Part shown: positions 1,201-23,562 of the stretch, piece after piece
Layout: the number at the start of each line of letters is the position of its first letter
How positions within the stretch are numbered: the stretch's first letter is position 1
Source of the DNA: a virus
Virus record (IMG/VR): IMGVR_UViG_3300042543_000293
Span: 1-27,553 of that record
DNA length: 27,553 nucleotides
Strand: one strand, 5' to 3'
Notes under the pieces: model-generated
What the model saw: the letters and a program-made list of their open reading frames with translations, nothing else
Databases searched by the model: none
What the model was told of the DNA's origin: nothing
Position numbers and translations under genes: made by a program

Positions 1201-3273
1201 TTACTTCATTGCAAAATTAGGTGCTACTAATCTCCATGCATCAAATCCAATCATTGCTAAACAATAGCAACCTGATTGACGAACCCATTTATCAAAAAAC
1301 TCAGCAGGAACCCAACCACCACCGCTTGGACCATCGAGTTGTCCAGGGTGGGCACCATAGCTCCATTGATTACCAACATAGATTCGTGGGTTCTTCATGT
1401 TGTAATCAAGTCCAGATAAGTGCATTTGATGCATCCATGTGCCGGATGGGATAAACCAGGAACAACCTGCTTCCTGGTCATGGCGTAACTGCATTTGGAA
1501 ACCTTGACCTGATGCAATACATGGAAATGCTTTAGCAATGATTATTGCCTTAGCAGCGTCATCGAAGTTCTTGACCTCGATGTACTTTTCAACTTTGGTT
1601 TCAGCAGCTTTAGCTTTCCACTTGTCGAGTACTGATCGAGAAGATCCCCATTCACGACCAATAGCGGTTGAGTAACCAGGAACACCCTGCTCATCTTCAG
1701 CAAGAACACCATAATCAGTGAGTGCTTGATACTGCCATGTGATAAGAGAACCATCACCTCGAATCTTATTACCACCAACGAGTACACGACCTGCACCGTA
1801 TAACCAAGGACGGAATACAGGTCGGTACTGTTGGAGATTACCACTTCGAACGATCTGATCGGCAAGTAGGTACTCCAGCCCCATTTCAGTTGCAGCAGCA
1901 ACGCAGTTATGAACAGCAAGTCCATCTACTTGAAATGAGTGGTTATGTTCAACTTCTAAGCAATATACAAAACCTTCGTAATGACTGCTAGTTATTGCGG
2001 TAACTTCTTCAAGAGTACCTTTCGATGTTATATCAGCATGTAGCACATCAATACTAACTTCAGATGATATAGCTGGTTTTAATCGAACTGCTTCAGATCC
2101 ATTGAATTGAAGATCATAAGCAATTTTTGATTGCTTACGAGGTTTACGCTGCGATATTCTTGGTCGAATAAGTAAGTTATTGCAGATTCTATAGAAATCT
2201 GAAATCAGATTTTTATTAACACTGACTCCTGTGATCTTACAATTTTTAGAAGGCTTCCTATTTTTTCGAATAATTGATTTCGTATCAATATGACCGTCAC
2301 CATCAATCCAACCTTCTAATACTGCATATTGATACCTAGCAGCTTGTAAAAATACCCATGCTGGTATTCGTTTAGTGTAGGTATTACCTTTAATCCAATT
2401 ATTAAATAATTGAGATAAGGGTGTGTTACTTATCCTGCAATATAAAACAGAAGGTTTGCTTTTTCTTTTGTAAATTTTACATTCAATACCTAATGAATTC
2501 ATGTAAGCTTCTATGCGTTTAGCATGAATAGCTTTCTTATCACTAAGATTGAAAGTAATTCGATTACGTTCTAAAGATCCATCAGCTAAAAATAATCCAA
2601 GCATCCATGCAAGATCTGAATCTAAGGCAATATAACGAGGACACGTATTTCTAGAACGACCGAAAGTAACACGATCATCTGATATAGGAATGCAATTTGC
2701 ATCTTTAACTAGATCGAATTCAGTAATCCATTTATCAATCTGAGTTCTATCTTTAGGTTGTAGAAGTTGACAAGATGGTTTTAGATTCCTTGCTTCAACC
2801 CACTCGAACCCACCTTTAACATCGTCGTAGACATACATACGATGATCTGGAGTGCAGTTGATTTCTTTAATTTTGCATCTAAATTCGAATTTTAAGATAT
2901 CACCTGAATATGGTTTTTTGATTACTCGAATTACCTTATTTGGTGATCCAATATGATCCAGCACCTCTTCACCAACTACAACATCTTCAATTGCTTTTTC
3001 TGTACCATCAGCCATACGAACTTGACTGCTTGGCACAAAACAATCACCTAGTAACTGATTGGTGTTGGGTAAATGCTTACCAGTTAATTTGACAACAGCA
3101 TCCCAGAAAGCAAACCTTTTACCCTTTGGATCAGAGTCGGTTTGCATGGCACTTGCTAGACCATCCCAGTCGATCATACGGGTATCGACGATTGGATGAT
3201 CGGGTTGTGCTGCAAATGCTTCTAAAGCAGGTTCTTCTTCTTTAGGACCTGCCCAACCAAATTGATATTTCAT
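1201..3273 (-). CDS. Papain-like (C1) cysteine peptidase precursor interrupted by an intein
   Basis: The 690-aa precursor splices to about 311 aa (residues 1-77 joined to 457-690). The host protein has the papain arrangement: NQLLGD-C with catalytic Cys as precursor residue 457 (mature 78), a His in WMHQMHLSGLD (precursor 615 or 618), and an Asn in VGNQWSYG (precursor 635). Residues 78-456 are a complete intein placed directly before the catalytic Cys, so the unspliced protein cannot have the normal active site. There is no signal peptide. The start ATG at 3273 has AGGAAG upstream. Possible roles are virion or host protein processing, or lysis; the sequence does not decide. Catalytic residues apart from Cys are assigned by order, not by alignment. 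Confidence 0.88.
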   Translation of the reverse strand: MKYQFGWAGPKEEEPALEAFAAQPDHPIVDTRMIDWDGLASAMQTDSDPKGKRFAFWDAVVKLTGKHLPNTNQLLGDCFVPSSQVRMADGTEKAIEDVVVGEEVLDHIGSPNKVIRVIKKPYSGDILKFEFRCKIKEINCTPDHRMYVYDDVKGGFEWVEARNLKPSCQLLQPKDRTQIDKWITEFDLVKDANCIPISDDRVTFGRSRNTCPRYIALDSDLAWMLGLFLADGSLERNRITFNLSDKKAIHAKRIEAYMNSLGIECKIYKRKSKPSVLYCRISNTPLSQLFNNWIKGNTYTKRIPAWVFLQAARYQYAVLEGWIDGDGHIDTKSIIRKNRKPSKNCKITGVSVNKNLISDFYRICNNLLIRPRISQRKPRKQSKIAYDLQFNGSEAVRLKPAISSEVSIDVLHADITSKGTLEEVTAITSSHYEGFVYCLEVEHNHSFQVDGLAVHNCVAAATEMGLEYLLADQIVRSGNLQQYRPVFRPWLYGAGRVLVGGNKIRGDGSLITWQYQALTDYGVLAEDEQGVPGYSTAIGREWGSSRSVLDKWKAKAAETKVEKYIEVKNFDDAAKAIIIAKAFPCIASGQGFQMQLRHDQEAGCSWFIPSGTWMHQMHLSGLDYNMKNPRIYVGNQWSYGAHPGQLDGPSGGGWVPAEFFDKWVRQSGCYCLAMIGFDAWRLVAPNFAMK
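1906..3042 (-). mobile_element. Intein with LAGLIDADG homing endonuclease (379 aa)
   Basis: It starts at Cys78 (block A CFVPSSQV), has block B with TPDH at 141-144, block F near 437-450 (VYCLEVEHNHSF) and ends LAVHN before Cys457, so all splicing residues (Cys1, TxxH, terminal HN, Cys+1) are present. The endonuclease domain between them has two dodecapeptide motifs: MLGLFLADG (224-232) and LEGWIDGDG (319-327) with acidic residues D231 and D324/D326. The insert appears more AT-rich than the flanking exteins, as expected of an invading element. Both splicing and homing functions look intact. Confidence 0.93.
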
Positions 3274-3295
3274 AGGTTTGCTTCCTGGGAAAAAA

Positions 3296-3733
3296 TTAGA
3301 TCGAGTCTAGTTCTTCAACAACTGCAGCAACTTTGATAGATCCAGAGCTATGAGCTACATCCAACATTGCGTCTGCCAGTTGTTTAGGATTTCTTGGATA
3401 GCCAGCTTGTTTAGCAGCTATCCATACTCGACTACGAAAAATAGCCAATAGTATTTGATTGCGAAAACGTGCATTCTCTGAAAATTGAGAAGGCTTGCCG
3501 CAACCATTCTTCAGCAAATCCATGACTTGGATTATGGCAGTGATAATTGCCAAAATAGTCATGGGATCGATAGAGTATACCTGGAGATCTTTTTCAAGAG
3601 TCTCTGTATTCTCCTGAGAAGAAACGTATCCAGGTGAGTTAACAGTCATAACAGTTTCAAGCATTCCTAATGGAACACCTGTAACTTGTTCTGCTACTCG
3701 TAATGCGAATTCAGTTACGTTTTTTGTACTCAT
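3296..3733 (-). CDS. Unknown protein with hydrophobic segment (145 aa)
   Basis: The start is ATG at 3733, overlapping the TGA of the upstream 56-aa gene (ATGA) and preceded by AAGGT; a longer frame opening has no ribosome site. A hydrophobic stretch follows an acidic N-terminal half (DPMTILAIITAIIQVMDLL, about residues 59-77) and could be an amphipathic or single membrane helix. The C-terminal half is mixed and helical. No family is recognised. It sits between a multi-TM protein and the cysteine peptidase, so a lysis or membrane role is possible but unproven. Confidence 0.65.
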   Translation of the reverse strand: MSTKNVTEFALRVAEQVTGVPLGMLETVMTVNSPGYVSSQENTETLEKDLQVYSIDPMTILAIITAIIQVMDLLKNGCGKPSQFSENARFRNQILLAIFRSRVWIAAKQAGYPRNPKQLADAMLDVAHSSGSIKVAAVVEELDSI

Positions 3734-3900
3734 TTGAATAGTACCTTGATAACGTAACGAACACGATCTTCCCATGAAAGTGACAGCAGGTAATCATGAT
3801 ATGCTTTGATTACTCGCTTGGTTTCTGCGACATTGATCGCAGTTCCATTTGTGTCTGTTCTACGAGACACCTCATTGTAGACTTCATTCTTGTCTGCCAT
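3730..3900 (-). CDS. Small hypothetical protein (56 aa)
   Basis: Reading from ATG at 3900 gives MADKNEVYNEVSRR and ends with RYVIKVLFK. AGGAG lies 7 nt before the ATG, and the stop overlaps the next start (ATGA), both strong signs of a real gene. The product is soluble and mixed-charge with no recognised domain. A TTTTCCCCAGT relative of the dispersed motif lies just upstream of its ribosome site. Confidence 0.6.
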   Translation of the reverse strand: MADKNEVYNEVSRRTDTNGTAINVAETKRVIKAYHDYLLSLSWEDRVRYVIKVLFK

Positions 3901-3922
3901 AAAAAACTCCTACTGGGGAAAA

Positions 3923-4975
3923 CTACTCTGGCTGTTTACCAATGGATGCCAGCAATCCAATTTGAATCTCACGAAAGACTTCGGCAATATCAGATCGATT
4001 ATTCAGTTTCTTACTTGACCAATCCTGATTTACTTTGAGTCCTAAATCATCGAACCAAGAAGACCATGCTGTAAATGATGTACTGGTAGATAATTGACGA
4101 TTACGAGATCGAATCTCTTCAAACGCTTTATTGACATCTACTAAACCACCGGCAAAGATTGCTGCAGATACACTGCCATAGTTATCCGCAATAGCTTGAG
4201 CTAACTCTGTTCGATCTTTTACAGGAATCTTTAGAGCTTGATCGTAAGCAAGTTGCGAGAATCCAAATTTGCCAAAAGGTTTTGGTAATGGGTTAACTGG
4301 AGATGGATTAGGATTGGGATTGGGATTAGGTGGATTTGGATTATCGGGAGTTGGAGTGGGAGTTGGGGTAGGGGGCAATGCTCCTTCGATTACCACTCTG
4401 GTAAAGAGTTGCTGCAGAATACCATCTTTATCGGTGTATATGGTATCGACATCGTATGATCCTGGAGGTCCTGTCCACACCAGTTCTTTTCCATTATTAA
4501 CTCGTACTGAATCAGGTCGAAAACCGTCTGGTAGTCTGCGTATGATCCAAATGAACGATTTCGCATCATTTTCACATTCCAAACGAATTAGAGTATAGGG
4601 TTTGAAACTAGATTTTTGTTCTTGATCTGAACCTTGATACGTTGCAACTTGTGCCGATGATTCTCCTGGGAAAAACAGGATTAGTAAAAACATGATAGAT
4701 GCCATAGGTGGCAGAGGTGATTTGTCGTCTGCTTCCTCTTCTATTTTTTTCCTAGTATCCGACAAGTATTGAACAAGCCATACCAATAAAGGCAAAACAA
4801 TACTTGTGATTATTGGTGCATACTTTTCAGGAATTAGGGATTTAACTACATCAATTTGCTCAATACCAATACCGATTGCAGAAGCTAATGCTGCTAATCC
4901 TGCAATCTTGACTAAAAAGATCCAATCTTTCTGATTGGTCTGCATCGACTTAGAACCTGTTTCAACTAATACCAT
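3923..4975 (-). CDS. Membrane protein with Pro/Asn-rich linker (350 aa)
   Basis: ATG at 4975 has an AGGAG site 7 nt upstream. The N-terminal third has two hydrophobic segments (about 20-40 and 54-72), a charged stretch, and a third hydrophobic segment (about 90-103) resembling a signal anchor ending in GESSAQ. A beta-type domain (VWTGPPGSYDV, about 165-175) follows, then a linker of TP and NP repeats (about 200-230), and a helical C-terminal domain of about 120 aa. The first two helices recall a two-TM holin, but holins are much shorter. A membrane-anchored protein with an exported domain is the safest description. Confidence 0.7.
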   Translation of the reverse strand: MVLVETGSKSMQTNQKDWIFLVKIAGLAALASAIGIGIEQIDVVKSLIPEKYAPIITSIVLPLLVWLVQYLSDTRKKIEEEADDKSPLPPMASIMFLLILFFPGESSAQVATYQGSDQEQKSSFKPYTLIRLECENDAKSFIWIIRRLPDGFRPDSVRVNNGKELVWTGPPGSYDVDTIYTDKDGILQQLFTRVVIEGALPPTPTPTPTPDNPNPPNPNPNPNPSPVNPLPKPFGKFGFSQLAYDQALKIPVKDRTELAQAIADNYGSVSAAIFAGGLVDVNKAFEEIRSRNRQLSTSTSFTAWSSWFDDLGLKVNQDWSSKKLNNRSDIAEVFREIQIGLLASIGKQPE

Positions 4976-13299: not shown

Positions 13300-14586
13300 T
13301 TACTCTTTTCTAACAAACCAGCAGTAATCTCCGTCCAATTCTAATTTTAGATTTTTCTCTTTTACGAATTCATCTACTGCTCGTTTAACTCCAAAAGGCA
13401 AACTTGGGTAGTCGTAATCATGACCACCTAAGTAACCCCCTTTGATTACTTTAGTCCACCAGCATTGAATGTCTTTCATTACTCCTTCATAGGAATGATC
13501 ACCATCTAAGTAAACAAGATCTACTGATTCATTTTCAAAATTGATACATGCTTCTTCAGATTTCATTCTATGAGCATGTAATCTTTTTTGTGATGTAAGA
13601 AACCAAGAACGAGCCATAAAAGTTTGATAATGACTTTCGTGTTGTTCGTTTGATGAATGAGCTAAGTAGTCATTTGTATTTTTATATTCTTGGGAAGATA
13701 CATTAGCCCAAGGATCAACACAATGTACTTCTGCATAATTTCTTTGTTGACCTATGATTGTAGAAGTTGCTCCTTCGTATACTCCAACTTCTACATATTT
13801 ATAGTTCTGATGAATATTCGGCAACCTATCTAAAATTGCTTTATGTCTAGTGCCTTTAAATCCATTTGTTATTGCTCTGATAATTAAAAAAGATAGAAAT
13901 GTTGATAATGATAAAAGATGCTCTTTAGTATCATTTTTTGCAAAATCAATTACTGCATTAGTAAGATGATAGCAGTAAGCATTGGGATTATATATACCAC
14001 GATCATGTTGGAAGTTTTCCCAATGTCTTTGCTGAACAAACCAATCTTTTTTATGCCAAGGGATATAAGAATACTCCCAATGGGGTGCAATATAAGGTTG
14101 TAAACCTGTAGTATGTCTTATATGATCAATAGACCAAGAACCAAGGTCTAAATAAGATAAACTACCTGGGCTTTTATCTCTAATTAGTTGTTTTTGTCTT
14201 TCTAGTATTAAACCTAAAAATTTATCTTTAGGTTTTGGAGAATATATTAAACATTGAGTCAATCTATCACATTGACCATCTTCAAACATAAATGAGCATC
14301 TGTTATCAATAACTTCATAGGGAAACTCAATTGGTCTTAAATGAATACAATCAGCATCGACCCAAAAACCACCGAAGTTATATAAATACCATACTCTAAA
14401 AACATCTGAAAAATGAACCATACTTAAACCATTAAATTGCTCTAATAGTTCTTTACCACCAGGAATAGTTGGTATAGTTTCTTTAGTATAAATTTTTACG
14501 TTAGGATTATGTATTTTTAAAGATTCAATACAAATTTTTTGTATTGGTAAGTCATAATTATCAGCTAAAGTAAATAAATTGTTCAT
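13300..14586 (-). CDS. Glycosyltransferase-methyltransferase fusion protein
   Basis: 428 aa in two parts. Residues about 1-215 form a sugar transferase of the DXD/Gly_transf_sug type: FSDVFRVWYLYNFGG (59-73) and WVDADC with D77 and D79 for metal-nucleotide-sugar binding. Residues about 240-428 form a class I SAM-dependent methyltransferase: YKYVEVGVYEGATS (262-275, SAM loop with E266), CVDPWAN (289-295), YLDGDHSYEG (359-368) and a GGYLGGHDY strand. The fusion suggests addition of a sugar followed by its O-methylation. The gene is visibly AT-rich compared with neighbours, consistent with transfer. Its ATG overlaps the upstream GT25 gene stop (ATGA). Substrate unknown. Confidence 0.85.
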   Translation of the reverse strand: MNNLFTLADNYDLPIQKICIESLKIHNPNVKIYTKETIPTIPGGKELLEQFNGLSMVHFSDVFRVWYLYNFGGFWVDADCIHLRPIEFPYEVIDNRCSFMFEDGQCDRLTQCLIYSPKPKDKFLGLILERQKQLIRDKSPGSLSYLDLGSWSIDHIRHTTGLQPYIAPHWEYSYIPWHKKDWFVQQRHWENFQHDRGIYNPNAYCYHLTNAVIDFAKNDTKEHLLSLSTFLSFLIIRAITNGFKGTRHKAILDRLPNIHQNYKYVEVGVYEGATSTIIGQQRNYAEVHCVDPWANVSSQEYKNTNDYLAHSSNEQHESHYQTFMARSWFLTSQKRLHAHRMKSEEACINFENESVDLVYLDGDHSYEGVMKDIQCWWTKVIKGGYLGGHDYDYPSLPFGVKRAVDEFVKEKNLKLELDGDYCWFVRKE

Positions 14587-15798: not shown

Positions 15799-17733
15799 TT
15801 AAGGAGTTTCTACGCGAGTACATACCCATAGTATTCTTTGTCCAATCCACTCTCCTGGAAAGAACGGTGGTAGACATTGGCAATCCGGATAGGGAGAACA
15901 TTCTGTAAGTACCACCCAACTAGAACCATCCCACATGATGAAACATTCTGTACAGGATGGTCCGCCACCTCCACCACTTCCAGAACCTCCACCTGATCCA
16001 CCACTGCCCTGTGATCCTGATCCACCGCTACCCTGTGAACCAGAACTCGCAGATCCAGAAGAAGCACTCGAAGCACTTGAACTAGAAGAACTAGAAGAAC
16101 TGGAACTTGAACTAGAACTAGAACTAGAACTGGAACTTGAGCTAGAGCTTGAACTAGAACTCGAACTAGAAGAACTAGAGCTAGAAGGGCTGGATACACT
16201 CGAACCACTAGAACTACTGGAAATGGACTCGACACAACATTCAGCATAATAATATGCACCAACTTGGTTGCATACTCCTGATGATCCAATTCCTAAATCT
16301 TTTAAGTTTCTAGTTAGATCGTATAAAGTAATTGAAGTACGGCGAGGAGTACCGATAATCGGATAAAAAATGTCAGCAGTAGCAACGCCATAGGAATATC
16401 CATCTGAGTAAACAAATGGGGAAGTGAGAACATACTTCCATTTCTCTCGAATAAGTTCTTTTTCATACTGTTTAAACTCCGGTGTTAGATAATTCAGTTC
16501 GTGCTTAGGAACGCCAATAACTTCGGTTGTTAAGCCTTTACCTGTGTTGGAATACACAATCTTGTCTGCTTCAAATCGAGGGGTAAAACTAAACCTGCCT
16601 CGAATACGGCGATAAGATATTCTGGGATGGATCGATGCCCTTGCTCGTTCTGCTACATCACCGTAAATCTGATTATTCCAGTAAGAAGTATCATTAGGTA
16701 GATAGTTTACTGTAGAACCACCAGGATTGACCCATGCGTAATGATGAGGAAGAGTTACCTGTAAACTCGAATTAGAATCACCTGATGTATCACTAGCTTG
16801 ATAGAACCCTTCAGGATAGTTGTTGACATCTAACTGAAGAACTATATCTGATTCATTATTGTAGAATTTAGGAATCAAAGATTCGTTTGCAATAAACGTA
16901 ACTGGGAACTTGAGTTTTTCAATCGGTTCTGCTGGACTTGGAAAAAAAACTACTAAGTTCTGCATCTGGTTAATCATATACGCAGCAGAGTAGTCGGAGT
17001 TCTCTGCACGTAAACCATCGAAGACTAAATTGCCAAGTCGATCTACATAGTAATAGCAACGAAAGATTTCAGCACATCTTGAACACCATTCAAGAAATGT
17101 CATGTCTCCAGAATGGACATTAAGAAGATAATAGTTTTGAAGAAATGTTGTATTAAGTAAACCTGTTACTGCAGGATTAGCAGCAGCTTCAAGCATATCA
17201 TTCAATATAGCTGATGCTGTCCATAGAGAAGTTCCATTAAGAGTTTCTTCGTAATATCGATTAGTACCAGCAGATACTCCAACATTCTTTTCAGTATGAC
17301 GAATCTTATTGTAGACTTTGTTTTTAGTATGGACTTTACCAAACCAATGTCTCATGTCCTCTAAGATAATATAAACAACTGAATCAGGATTATCTGGATG
17401 CCCTAAAATATTAACTGCATCAACTATCGTCCATTTAAAGTAGTTAGTCCCTATTCCTCCAGAGTATTGATCTCGAATACGAATGGTAACATTAGGGTAG
17501 AAATAACTGGTCGATATAGGTCCTGATAAACCACCTGCTTCTATACTTAGATCATCGTAATCTGATTTAGTAATAAGCAAATGACAACATGCTGGTTCAG
17601 GACCATGTTTGAGTTCAAGGGAATTGCATTTGGAAATCAACGAAGGATCCATGTCCATTTTCTGCATGTGGGCACGTACAGAAACAGGATCGATACAAGA
17701 AAACTGACTTCCGTTAGCTGTTAACTCAAACAT
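15799..17733 (-). CDS. Tail hub-like structural protein with poly-serine tract
   Basis: 644 aa; ATG at 17733 overlaps the portal stop (TAATG). Residues about 205-250 contain TFLEWCSRCAEIFRCYYYV and DRLGNLVFDG, the pattern of a tail hub / gpD-type domain (short helix, then YVD..G.LVF strand). Several aromatic beta strands follow. A region at about 499-560 is almost pure serine, then a Ser/Ala/Gly and Gly-rich linker to about 600, and a Cys-rich C-terminal module (CTECF, CSPYPDCQC). The serine-rich stretch could be a flexible or glycosylated stalk. Its neighbours downstream are glycosyltransferases. The tail-hub call is from motif shape only. Confidence 0.6.
   Translation of the reverse strand: MFELTANGSQFSCIDPVSVRAHMQKMDMDPSLISKCNSLELKHGPEPACCHLLITKSDYDDLSIEAGGLSGPISTSYFYPNVTIRIRDQYSGGIGTNYFKWTIVDAVNILGHPDNPDSVVYIILEDMRHWFGKVHTKNKVYNKIRHTEKNVGVSAGTNRYYEETLNGTSLWTASAILNDMLEAAANPAVTGLLNTTFLQNYYLLNVHSGDMTFLEWCSRCAEIFRCYYYVDRLGNLVFDGLRAENSDYSAAYMINQMQNLVVFFPSPAEPIEKLKFPVTFIANESLIPKFYNNESDIVLQLDVNNYPEGFYQASDTSGDSNSSLQVTLPHHYAWVNPGGSTVNYLPNDTSYWNNQIYGDVAERARASIHPRISYRRIRGRFSFTPRFEADKIVYSNTGKGLTTEVIGVPKHELNYLTPEFKQYEKELIREKWKYVLTSPFVYSDGYSYGVATADIFYPIIGTPRRTSITLYDLTRNLKDLGIGSSGVCNQVGAYYYAECCVESISSSSSGSSVSSPSSSSSSSSSSSSSSSSSSSSSSSSSSSSSSSSSSSSSASSASSGSASSGSQGSGGSGSQGSGGSGGGSGSGGGGGPSCTECFIMWDGSSWVVLTECSPYPDCQCLPPFFPGEWIGQRILWVCTRVETP
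16060..16230 (-). repeat. Hexamer-like coding repeat producing poly-serine
   Basis: Imperfect repeats of TCT-AGT type (alternating TCN and AGY codons) spell about 57 nearly uninterrupted serines in the tail-hub-like protein. Such repeats can expand or contract by slippage; because of the codon mix the DNA drifts while the protein stays serine. Confidence 0.8.
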
Positions 17734-19031
17734 TAGTTATTCAATGTGTTAGGTGTTCCAGATTCAGTCTTCTCAATCTTAGAAGATGGGGGTGTTTCAC
17801 CCTTGGGAATCCCCTTGGTTTCCTGGGAAAAATTCCCTTGCTTCATTTCATCGCCGTAAGCTTCGATTGGGATCAATGGCACTACTTCAAATTCAGGTAA
17901 TTTCCCAAAGCTAAGAGGAATAAGGAAATTCAAAATTTGATTGATAAAATCACTGATCAAGAAGTCAACAATTTGTTGCAAAGTAGAATAGAAAGCTACC
18001 ATAGGAATCTTACGACCTGTAGCAGCACCAAGACCACCTCCACCACCTTGAATCACTTCAGGAGGAATACCAAGACCTTCAAGTTCTTCGTTGGTCAGGA
18101 AGATCATGTATTCAGCCATACCAGGAGGTGCTACTGACGATGATGGTGCTTCATAGTCCCAAATTTGTCTTCCATCAGCACCCGTCTGATTAGGGAAAAT
18201 AAGATAACCACCAGATCGTTTCTTAGCTAACATCTCAATAGCTAAATCTCGATTAGAGATACGACCGCCATTCTCTAAACTGGTGTAGCCTAGAGGGTAT
18301 CGCATGATACCACCATCGTATGCGTTACGATGGAACCAAAGACGACGAATATCACGAACACCACCTTCAGTCCAGATTTCCCACCATGCTGCGTATGCAC
18401 CGAATAGGCGAGATAATCCGTAATACTTCTGACGATCACGTTCGTGGGTATGCCAGAAGACTTTTGGAATACCAATATAGAACTGTTTTAGATTACCTGA
18501 GTTGATCTCAGTGCCGACTAATCCACCATTTACGGTGACTGCAACACAGTCAGGAGGATTGAAGTCTAGTAGATTGTCAAAATTGAGTACTCTACGCTTC
18601 CGACCATCAACTGAGGTAGATTCCTTGTAGATCACCTCACCTGCACTGTAGCCCCATTCTAGGGCTTTTAATGCCTTAATAGCACCTACTTGCCAGAACC
18701 TCTTCAGATTCTTGGTAATGAAATCGGCAACCTCCTTATCTTCACATTTCACAACGTAAGGAAAGGAGGTATCCGATGACACAATCCAGCGATGAATGGC
18801 AGGATTCTTTGCTTCTTCTTCAGTAAAGAATTTAGTGAAAGCATGGATAGGACCTTTGATGAGTCCCAAACCAAAGCAGATACGTGGATCTTCAAGCATC
18901 TGTTTAATCGCAAACCGAGAAAAGATCGGTCTGTGATGTGGTGCATACGAGTAATAATTCTGGATGTATCCAGTTGGGTCGTATGGGACAGATTGAATTT
19001 GAAGTAAGTCTTCTTTGGTTATTTGTGCCAT
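17733..19031 (-). CDS. Portal-like protein (DUF935/Mu gp29 style)
   Basis: 432 aa. Features shared with portal proteins of this group: IFSRFAIKQMLEDPRI near the N terminus, KALKALEWGYSAGEVIYKE (about 119-137), IPKVFWHTHERDRQKYYG and LSRLFGAYAAWWEIW (about 188-220), a clip-like middle, and a glycine-rich segment (GGGGGLGAATG, about 330) before a hydrophobic helix with Phe/Ile residues. The C terminus is Pro/Ser/Glu-rich and disordered. The portal forms the dodecameric packaging ring. ATG at 19031 overlaps the preceding stop by 13 nt. It is unusually placed behind the tape measure. The family call is by eye. Confidence 0.65.
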   Translation of the reverse strand: MAQITKEDLLQIQSVPYDPTGYIQNYYSYAPHHRPIFSRFAIKQMLEDPRICFGLGLIKGPIHAFTKFFTEEEAKNPAIHRWIVSSDTSFPYVVKCEDKEVADFITKNLKRFWQVGAIKALKALEWGYSAGEVIYKESTSVDGRKRRVLNFDNLLDFNPPDCVAVTVNGGLVGTEINSGNLKQFYIGIPKVFWHTHERDRQKYYGLSRLFGAYAAWWEIWTEGGVRDIRRLWFHRNAYDGGIMRYPLGYTSLENGGRISNRDLAIEMLAKKRSGGYLIFPNQTGADGRQIWDYEAPSSSVAPPGMAEYMIFLTNEELEGLGIPPEVIQGGGGGLGAATGRKIPMVAFYSTLQQIVDFLISDFINQILNFLIPLSFGKLPEFEVVPLIPIEAYGDEMKQGNFSQETKGIPKGETPPSSKIEKTESGTPNTLNN

Positions 19032-23472: not shown

Positions 23473-23562
23473 TTGGGATTACCTTCATTTCCTGGGAAAA
23501 TATCACTTCATGCTCTTTTTATTTTAAGAACTCTTCTAGAGTTTATAAACAGAATTTTTCAT

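Follow-up and report, generated by a model that had tools for sequence, protein, structure and literature searches.

An intein at the predicted nucleophile of a phage papain-fold enzyme, with the features of a homing element

The window, the whole stretch of DNA of an uncultivated bacteriophage analysed here (27,553 nucleotides; IMG/VR virus record IMGVR_UViG_3300042543_000293), carries on its minus strand an open reading frame for a papain-like enzyme precursor (1201..3273, 690 aa) that is interrupted by an intein directly before Cys457, the residue predicted to act as nucleophile once the enzyme is mature. The insert is very probably a mobile intein of class 1 type that encodes a LAGLIDADG homing endonuclease and has specialised on DNA for the nucleophile motif (GD/CV, where the slash here and below marks an intein junction) in a phage papain-fold family. 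Comparisons of sequences and one predicted structure show the intein anatomy, an exact intein-free allele, a family-wide cysteine, a papain fold in a homologue, and a single intein clade in scattered hosts.

Intein anatomy and the intein-free allele

The open reading frame consists of an N-extein of residues 1–77 with the last residues NTNQLLGD (3043..3273, minus strand), a 379 aa intein of residues 78–456 (1906..3042, minus strand), and a C-extein of residues 457–690 (1201..1905 with the stop codon counted in, minus strand). The intein is delimited by PF14890, PF14528, TIGR01443/TIGR01445 and motif positions, the N-extein by alignment to the intein-free allele together with motif positions, and the C-extein by alignment to that allele (L007). 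The Pfam Intein_splicing domain (PF14890) is matched with E = 5e-13 and 49.5 bits (cut-off 35.8), and LAGLIDADG_3 (PF14528) with E = 6e-11 and 42.9 bits (cut-off 22.5). The NCBIfam intein C-terminal splicing region is matched at 1.5e-5, above its cut-off, and the N-terminal region gives 23.4 bits, just below the cut-off of 24.5.

The insert displays the features of a class 1 intein, with Cys78 as the N-terminal nucleophile, TPDH (residues 141–144) as the TxxH of block B, and a C-terminal His455-Asn456 followed by Cys457 as the +1 splicing nucleophile (HN/C; Cys457 at 1903..1905, minus strand). In addition to its domain match, the endonuclease shows two motifs with acidic residues. The first, WMLGLFLADGS (residues 223–233; 2575..2607, minus strand), is placed by the domain match and its position, and the second, VLEGWIDGDGH (residues 318–328; 2290..2322, minus strand), aligns with the equivalent motif of a same-site intein in another phage (L085, below). 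From its Pfam and NCBIfam matches and motif positions, the insert is confirmed, as judged from its sequence, as an intein of class 1 type that is complete and includes a LAGLIDADG endonuclease. An earlier reading of the DNA made without database searches (the sequence-only reading) had described the insert in these terms, and its coordinates and residues for the intein and for Cys457 are correct. Because the splicing residues are canonical, spontaneous splicing is predicted. The G+C content of the intein is 0.34, against 0.44–0.45 in the exteins.

A Hedgehog-type or BIL Hint domain was considered and rejected, since the endonuclease, the C-terminal HN/C and the ligatable exteins speak for a true intein. 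Nothing supports the overlapping open reading frame at 1542–1925 as a gene.

Two further IMG/VR contigs, 99.8% identical in DNA and thus almost the same phage, carry this intein as well. A different contig, L007 (IMGVR_UViG_3300042540_000639), shows the gene order of the window phage and an intein-free protein of 313 aa that shares 62% identity with the joined window exteins. This protein reads NTNQLLGDCVAAGTEMG, unbroken at the insertion point, and in the alignment to it, a comparison that the sequence-only reading had called for, the gap spans precisely residues 78–456. An assembly artefact is ruled out by the two additional intein-carrying contigs and the intein-free sister. The intein insertion is confirmed as real, and chance is excluded.

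The papain-fold family of the host protein

Single-sequence searches of Pfam, PHROGs and PDB with the joined extein gave no match, and two-sequence and six-sequence profiles also gave no match to PDB. Pfam PF00112 (Peptidase_C1) stays below threshold for the extein, for L007 and for the distant homologues tried, and the host protein is therefore filed here under the papain-fold family and not as a Pfam C1 member. Thus the HMM search that had been proposed for both parts of the precursor bears out the intein part, with its Pfam and NCBIfam matches, but finds nothing for the spliced extein alone.

A pattern for NQxxGDCVA showed four distant relatives. From these four a second pattern was taken, W-x-H-x-M ... 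N-S-W-G, of which neither the Cys nor the intein is a part. A scan with this pattern gave at least 117 relatives among at least 120 loci. Together (L016, L020, L024, L028 and 117 of the 120 loci L029–L148) these are part of a large and diverse phage papain-like family that is absent from Pfam and PHROGs. Five family members used as tblastn queries against 50,697 phage records gave nothing significant, and scans of genome contigs gave no relative.

The equivalent of Cys457 is present in all of the 114 listed homologues that reach this position, most of them found by the Cys-independent pattern. A Gln five residues before the Cys is kept in 106 of 113 listed homologues, which makes Gln73 (3055–3057, minus strand) the likely oxyanion-hole residue. 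The predicted catalytic His615 lies in WMHQM (1429..1431, minus strand) and the predicted catalytic Asn635 in GNQW, the equivalent of NSWG (1369..1371, minus strand), both placed by homologues and profile. The His is found in 123/123 and the Asn in 122/123 listed homologues, counts that are largely selected by the search pattern, since both motifs lie within it.

A 73-member family profile searched against PDB gives the cysteine protease xylellain (3ois) as the best match (6.4e-9), followed by cathepsins and ficins/plant papain-type proteases, and the family Cys, His and Asn align onto those of 3ois. In the AlphaFold model of L007 (pLDDT 86.9, pTM 0.87) a long helix begins at Cys79. Foldseek with this model gives 189 PDB matches at E ≤ 0.001, with xylellain 3ois again the best (1.3e-9) and the best 50 of the 189 all papain-fold, although with moderate TM-scores (near 0.5 by query). 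A fold of the precursor itself, predicted without an alignment, has a pLDDT of 33. The family shares with peptidase C1/xylellain the fold, the Q-C-H-N order and a Cys that opens the central helix, but shows 15% identity to 3ois, has a Gln-to-Cys spacing shorter by one residue, is phage-encoded and does not reach PF00112.

The profile, the conservation among homologues and the L007 fold together make Cys457 the predicted nucleophile, and the assignment of the host protein to a papain-fold family, with Cys, His, Asn and the oxyanion Gln in order, holds at the level of alignment and model. The sequence-only reading had proposed that Cys457 is the nucleophile of a papain-like enzyme, and had said that the claim would fall if the joined extein aligned poorly to C1 peptidases at the Cys, or if homologues without the insert lacked a nucleophile there. 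Neither is seen. The extein's family aligns by profile and by fold with its Cys on the papain nucleophile, and the listed homologues keep the Cys without exception.

Two genes beside the enzyme recur with it. A gene for a 159 aa protein (3296..3775, minus strand; profile match 1.2e-34) belongs to a small family found near the enzyme at 13 loci, and a gene for a 350 aa membrane protein (3923..4975, minus strand; profile match 4.9e-14) belongs to a recurring family with no Pfam or PHROG match. The membrane-protein family is present in 84 of 123 family loci listed and is adjacent to the enzyme in 74, in every case on the strand of the enzyme gene. By simple hydropathy an N-terminal hydrophobic segment is found in 27 of 111 enzymes listed, and one neighbour in L085 shows a weak holin resemblance (0.0072). 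The recurring membrane-protein neighbour suggests a conserved envelope module, and the enzyme family may act at the envelope, perhaps in lysis.

The recurrence of the membrane-protein partner and of holin-like neighbours also fits a papain-fold host protein that does something other than proteolysis (as a peptidoglycan amidase, a transferase or otherwise), in which case the intein would not be in a protease. The single-sequence searches without a Peptidase_C1 match agree with such a role, as does the PG_binding_1 domain of another phage papain-fold protein (L155). Against it, the Cys, His, Asn and oxyanion Gln are all retained and the most similar solved structure is that of a cysteine protease, so that a role other than proteolysis is a possibility to be kept in mind but not the one we expect. 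It concerns the host enzyme alone and is compatible with homing of the intein. For any Cys enzyme, the finding of an intein at the nucleophile would stand either way.

Same-site inteins and the origin of the insertion

An intein at the identical position is found in two very distant phage lineages, in L085 (the same as L151/L152), a 223-kb phage contig (L152 is 94 kb), and in L153, a 137-kb contig. In both, the insertion context is GD/C ... N/CVSH, and both inteins are, like that of the window, lower in G+C than their own exteins. The host proteins of the window, L085 and L153 are pairwise 19–29% identical by local alignment. The junction DNA of the three carriers reads GGTGAT/TGCGTT, GGTGAC/TGTGTA and GGCGAT/TGTGTG, and the empty L007 junction, GGCGAC/TGTGTA, encodes the same GD/CV motif. 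L085 has Asn and L153 has Phe as the penultimate intein residue instead of His, and the L153 intein is missing about 30 aa of the endonuclease region; these non-canonical residues and the deletion possibly indicate slow splicing or decay.

In a tree of host proteins the three carriers are found on separate branches with intein-free relatives between them, and well-supported branches force three changes. The sister of the window protein, L007, and the sisters of L085 (L050 and L037) are intein-free. In an intein tree that includes eight other phage inteins, those of the window, L085 and L153 form one clade with support of 97/98. Long branches are present in both trees, that of L153 in the host tree and those of several outgroups in the intein tree. 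In the intein-blind scan a carrier is found in 1 of 117 members listed. The intein distribution is thus patchy and host-incongruent.

A single ancient gain with many losses could, on the trees, also give the same-site pattern. The intein would then be an old one of the family, inherited vertically, lost in most lineages and now homing little, as the single clade of same-site inteins would allow; the L153 deletion is of the kind found in decaying elements. However, the carriers are nested with strong support among intein-free members, so that very many precise losses would be needed, and identity between the L085 and L153 inteins (50%) exceeds that between their host proteins (29%), a difference that could in part reflect slower evolution of the intein. 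The window and L085 inteins moreover both retain two LAGLIDADG motifs, and we regard vertical descent of an ancient intein as unlikely.

For the preferred explanation, that of a homing element, we infer splicing, cutting by the endonuclease, activity of the enzyme and inactivity of the precursor as follows. The whole gene would be translated into a single precursor, from which the intein would be excised by an N-S shift at Cys78, transfer to the Cys457 thiol, cyclisation of Asn456 and an S-N shift, joining Asp77 to Cys457. Cys457, the last splicing nucleophile, would then become the catalytic Cys of a mature 311 aa enzyme together with His615 and Asn635. In a mixed infection the endonuclease would cut intein-free alleles at the unbroken GGY-GAY/TGY-GTN site, and the intein would be copied into them during repair. 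For a selfish element the nucleophile site is a good target, since its DNA stays conserved even between distant phages and an imprecise loss would destroy the enzyme. The intein thus resembles a selfish element that exploits a target unable to change, more than it does a switch for timing, and nothing points to regulation of the enzyme by it. That insertion in so conserved a spot is expected of a homing element, as the sequence-only reading had remarked, agrees with the same-site clade in three lineages and the exact intein-free allele.

The same reading had also proposed that splicing times the protease in infection. The precursor is probably inactive before splicing, since by its anatomy Gln73 and Cys457 are 384 chain residues apart and the backbone nitrogen of the Cys is bonded to the intein Asn. 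The nucleophile is itself the splice-junction residue, so no normal active site is possible in the precursor, which is what would be needed if the intein were kept as a post-translational switch, with the enzyme inactive until an infection signal or a delay triggers splicing. Two of the three same-site inteins have the non-His penultimate residues given above. In mycobacteriophage inteins this position varies and influences precursor accumulation, and loss of the penultimate His alters splicing rate and precursor build-up, according to PMC5050341; mycobacterial DnaB shows documented conditional splicing (PMC6195587). The window intein, however, has the canonical HN/C end, the nearest relatives of each well-placed carrier are intein-free, and the single carrier among the 117 members listed from the intein-blind scan also speaks against a switch. 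An intein-host association conserved over related phages, as would mark a conditional intein, is not found. About a quarter of the family has the N-terminal hydrophobic segment and most have the membrane-protein neighbour, so localisation would be an alternative means of control. A switch maintained by selection is therefore very unlikely, and the proposed timing of the protease finds no positive support. A fuller form of the idea, with the intein co-opted as a zymogen-like gate whose slow or conditional splicing delays an envelope-acting protease until late infection, is likewise very improbable; slow or conditional splicing of this kind would perhaps be found in the carriers with non-His penultimate residues.

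Comparison with known inteins, and other features of the window

Phage inteins tend to adjoin conserved motifs and active sites, as PMC5050341 reports. The mycobacteriophage inteins covered there (in TerL, TOPRIM, a RecB-like nuclease and others) resemble that of the window in their homing endonucleases and placement at active centres, and show, as here, several insertion sites, evidence of horizontal transfer and a variable penultimate His. Their hosts, as named in the passages of that paper used here, are mainly DNA-processing enzymes, whereas here the host belongs to a papain-fold family and the +1 residue is the predicted nucleophile. In M. smegmatis DnaBi1 (PMC6195587) the +1 residue, a P-loop Ser, also serves both splicing and the mature active site. 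DnaBi1, however, is an endonuclease-free mini-intein of class 3 that interrupts a helicase, while the window intein is class 1-like, with an endonuclease, at a papain-like Cys. Redox-conditional splicing has been demonstrated for DnaBi1, whereas splicing of the window intein is a prediction. From the active-site phage inteins and the dual-role Ser, the principle is already known.

No intein in a papain-like enzyme turned up in a literature search that covered few subscription papers. As far as this literature shows, the host family (widespread, unnamed and associated with a membrane module) and the nucleophile shared with splicing are new. Papain-fold enzymes thus join the hosts of active-site phage inteins, and one cysteine would serve two chemistries, first splicing and then predicted catalysis. 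Three carriers of one intein clade on separate host branches make a natural set for the question of selfish against regulatory inteins.

The L155 open reading frame 2371–4488 encodes a papain-like phage protein with a peptidoglycan-binding domain and has an intein at residues 211–567. Like that of the window, the L155 intein interrupts the active site of a papain-fold protein from a phage, but it is placed three residues after the catalytic His (GHAI/C) and not before the Cys, and is 26% identical to the window intein. Both catalytic motifs of the papain fold are thus found as intein sites.

The repeat TTTTCCCAGGAA(G/A) is found in minus-strand reading at 901–913, 3281–3293, 17819–17831 and 23488–23500 of the window. 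There are six matches on both strands with one mismatch allowed, against 0.04 expected. Three copies are situated just upstream of start codons, those of the papain-like gene, a small open reading frame at 899 and a 591 aa open reading frame, and the repeat may be read as an extended ribosome-binding or regulatory motif. The open reading frame at 13300–14586 (minus strand) has a first half that is glycosyltransferase-like by eye and a second half that matches the phage DNA methyltransferase family phrog_2675 (1e-25). The 644 aa protein encoded at 15799–17733 (minus strand), which adjoins the portal gene, contains glycine-rich repeats and a stretch of about 50 residues, most of them serine.
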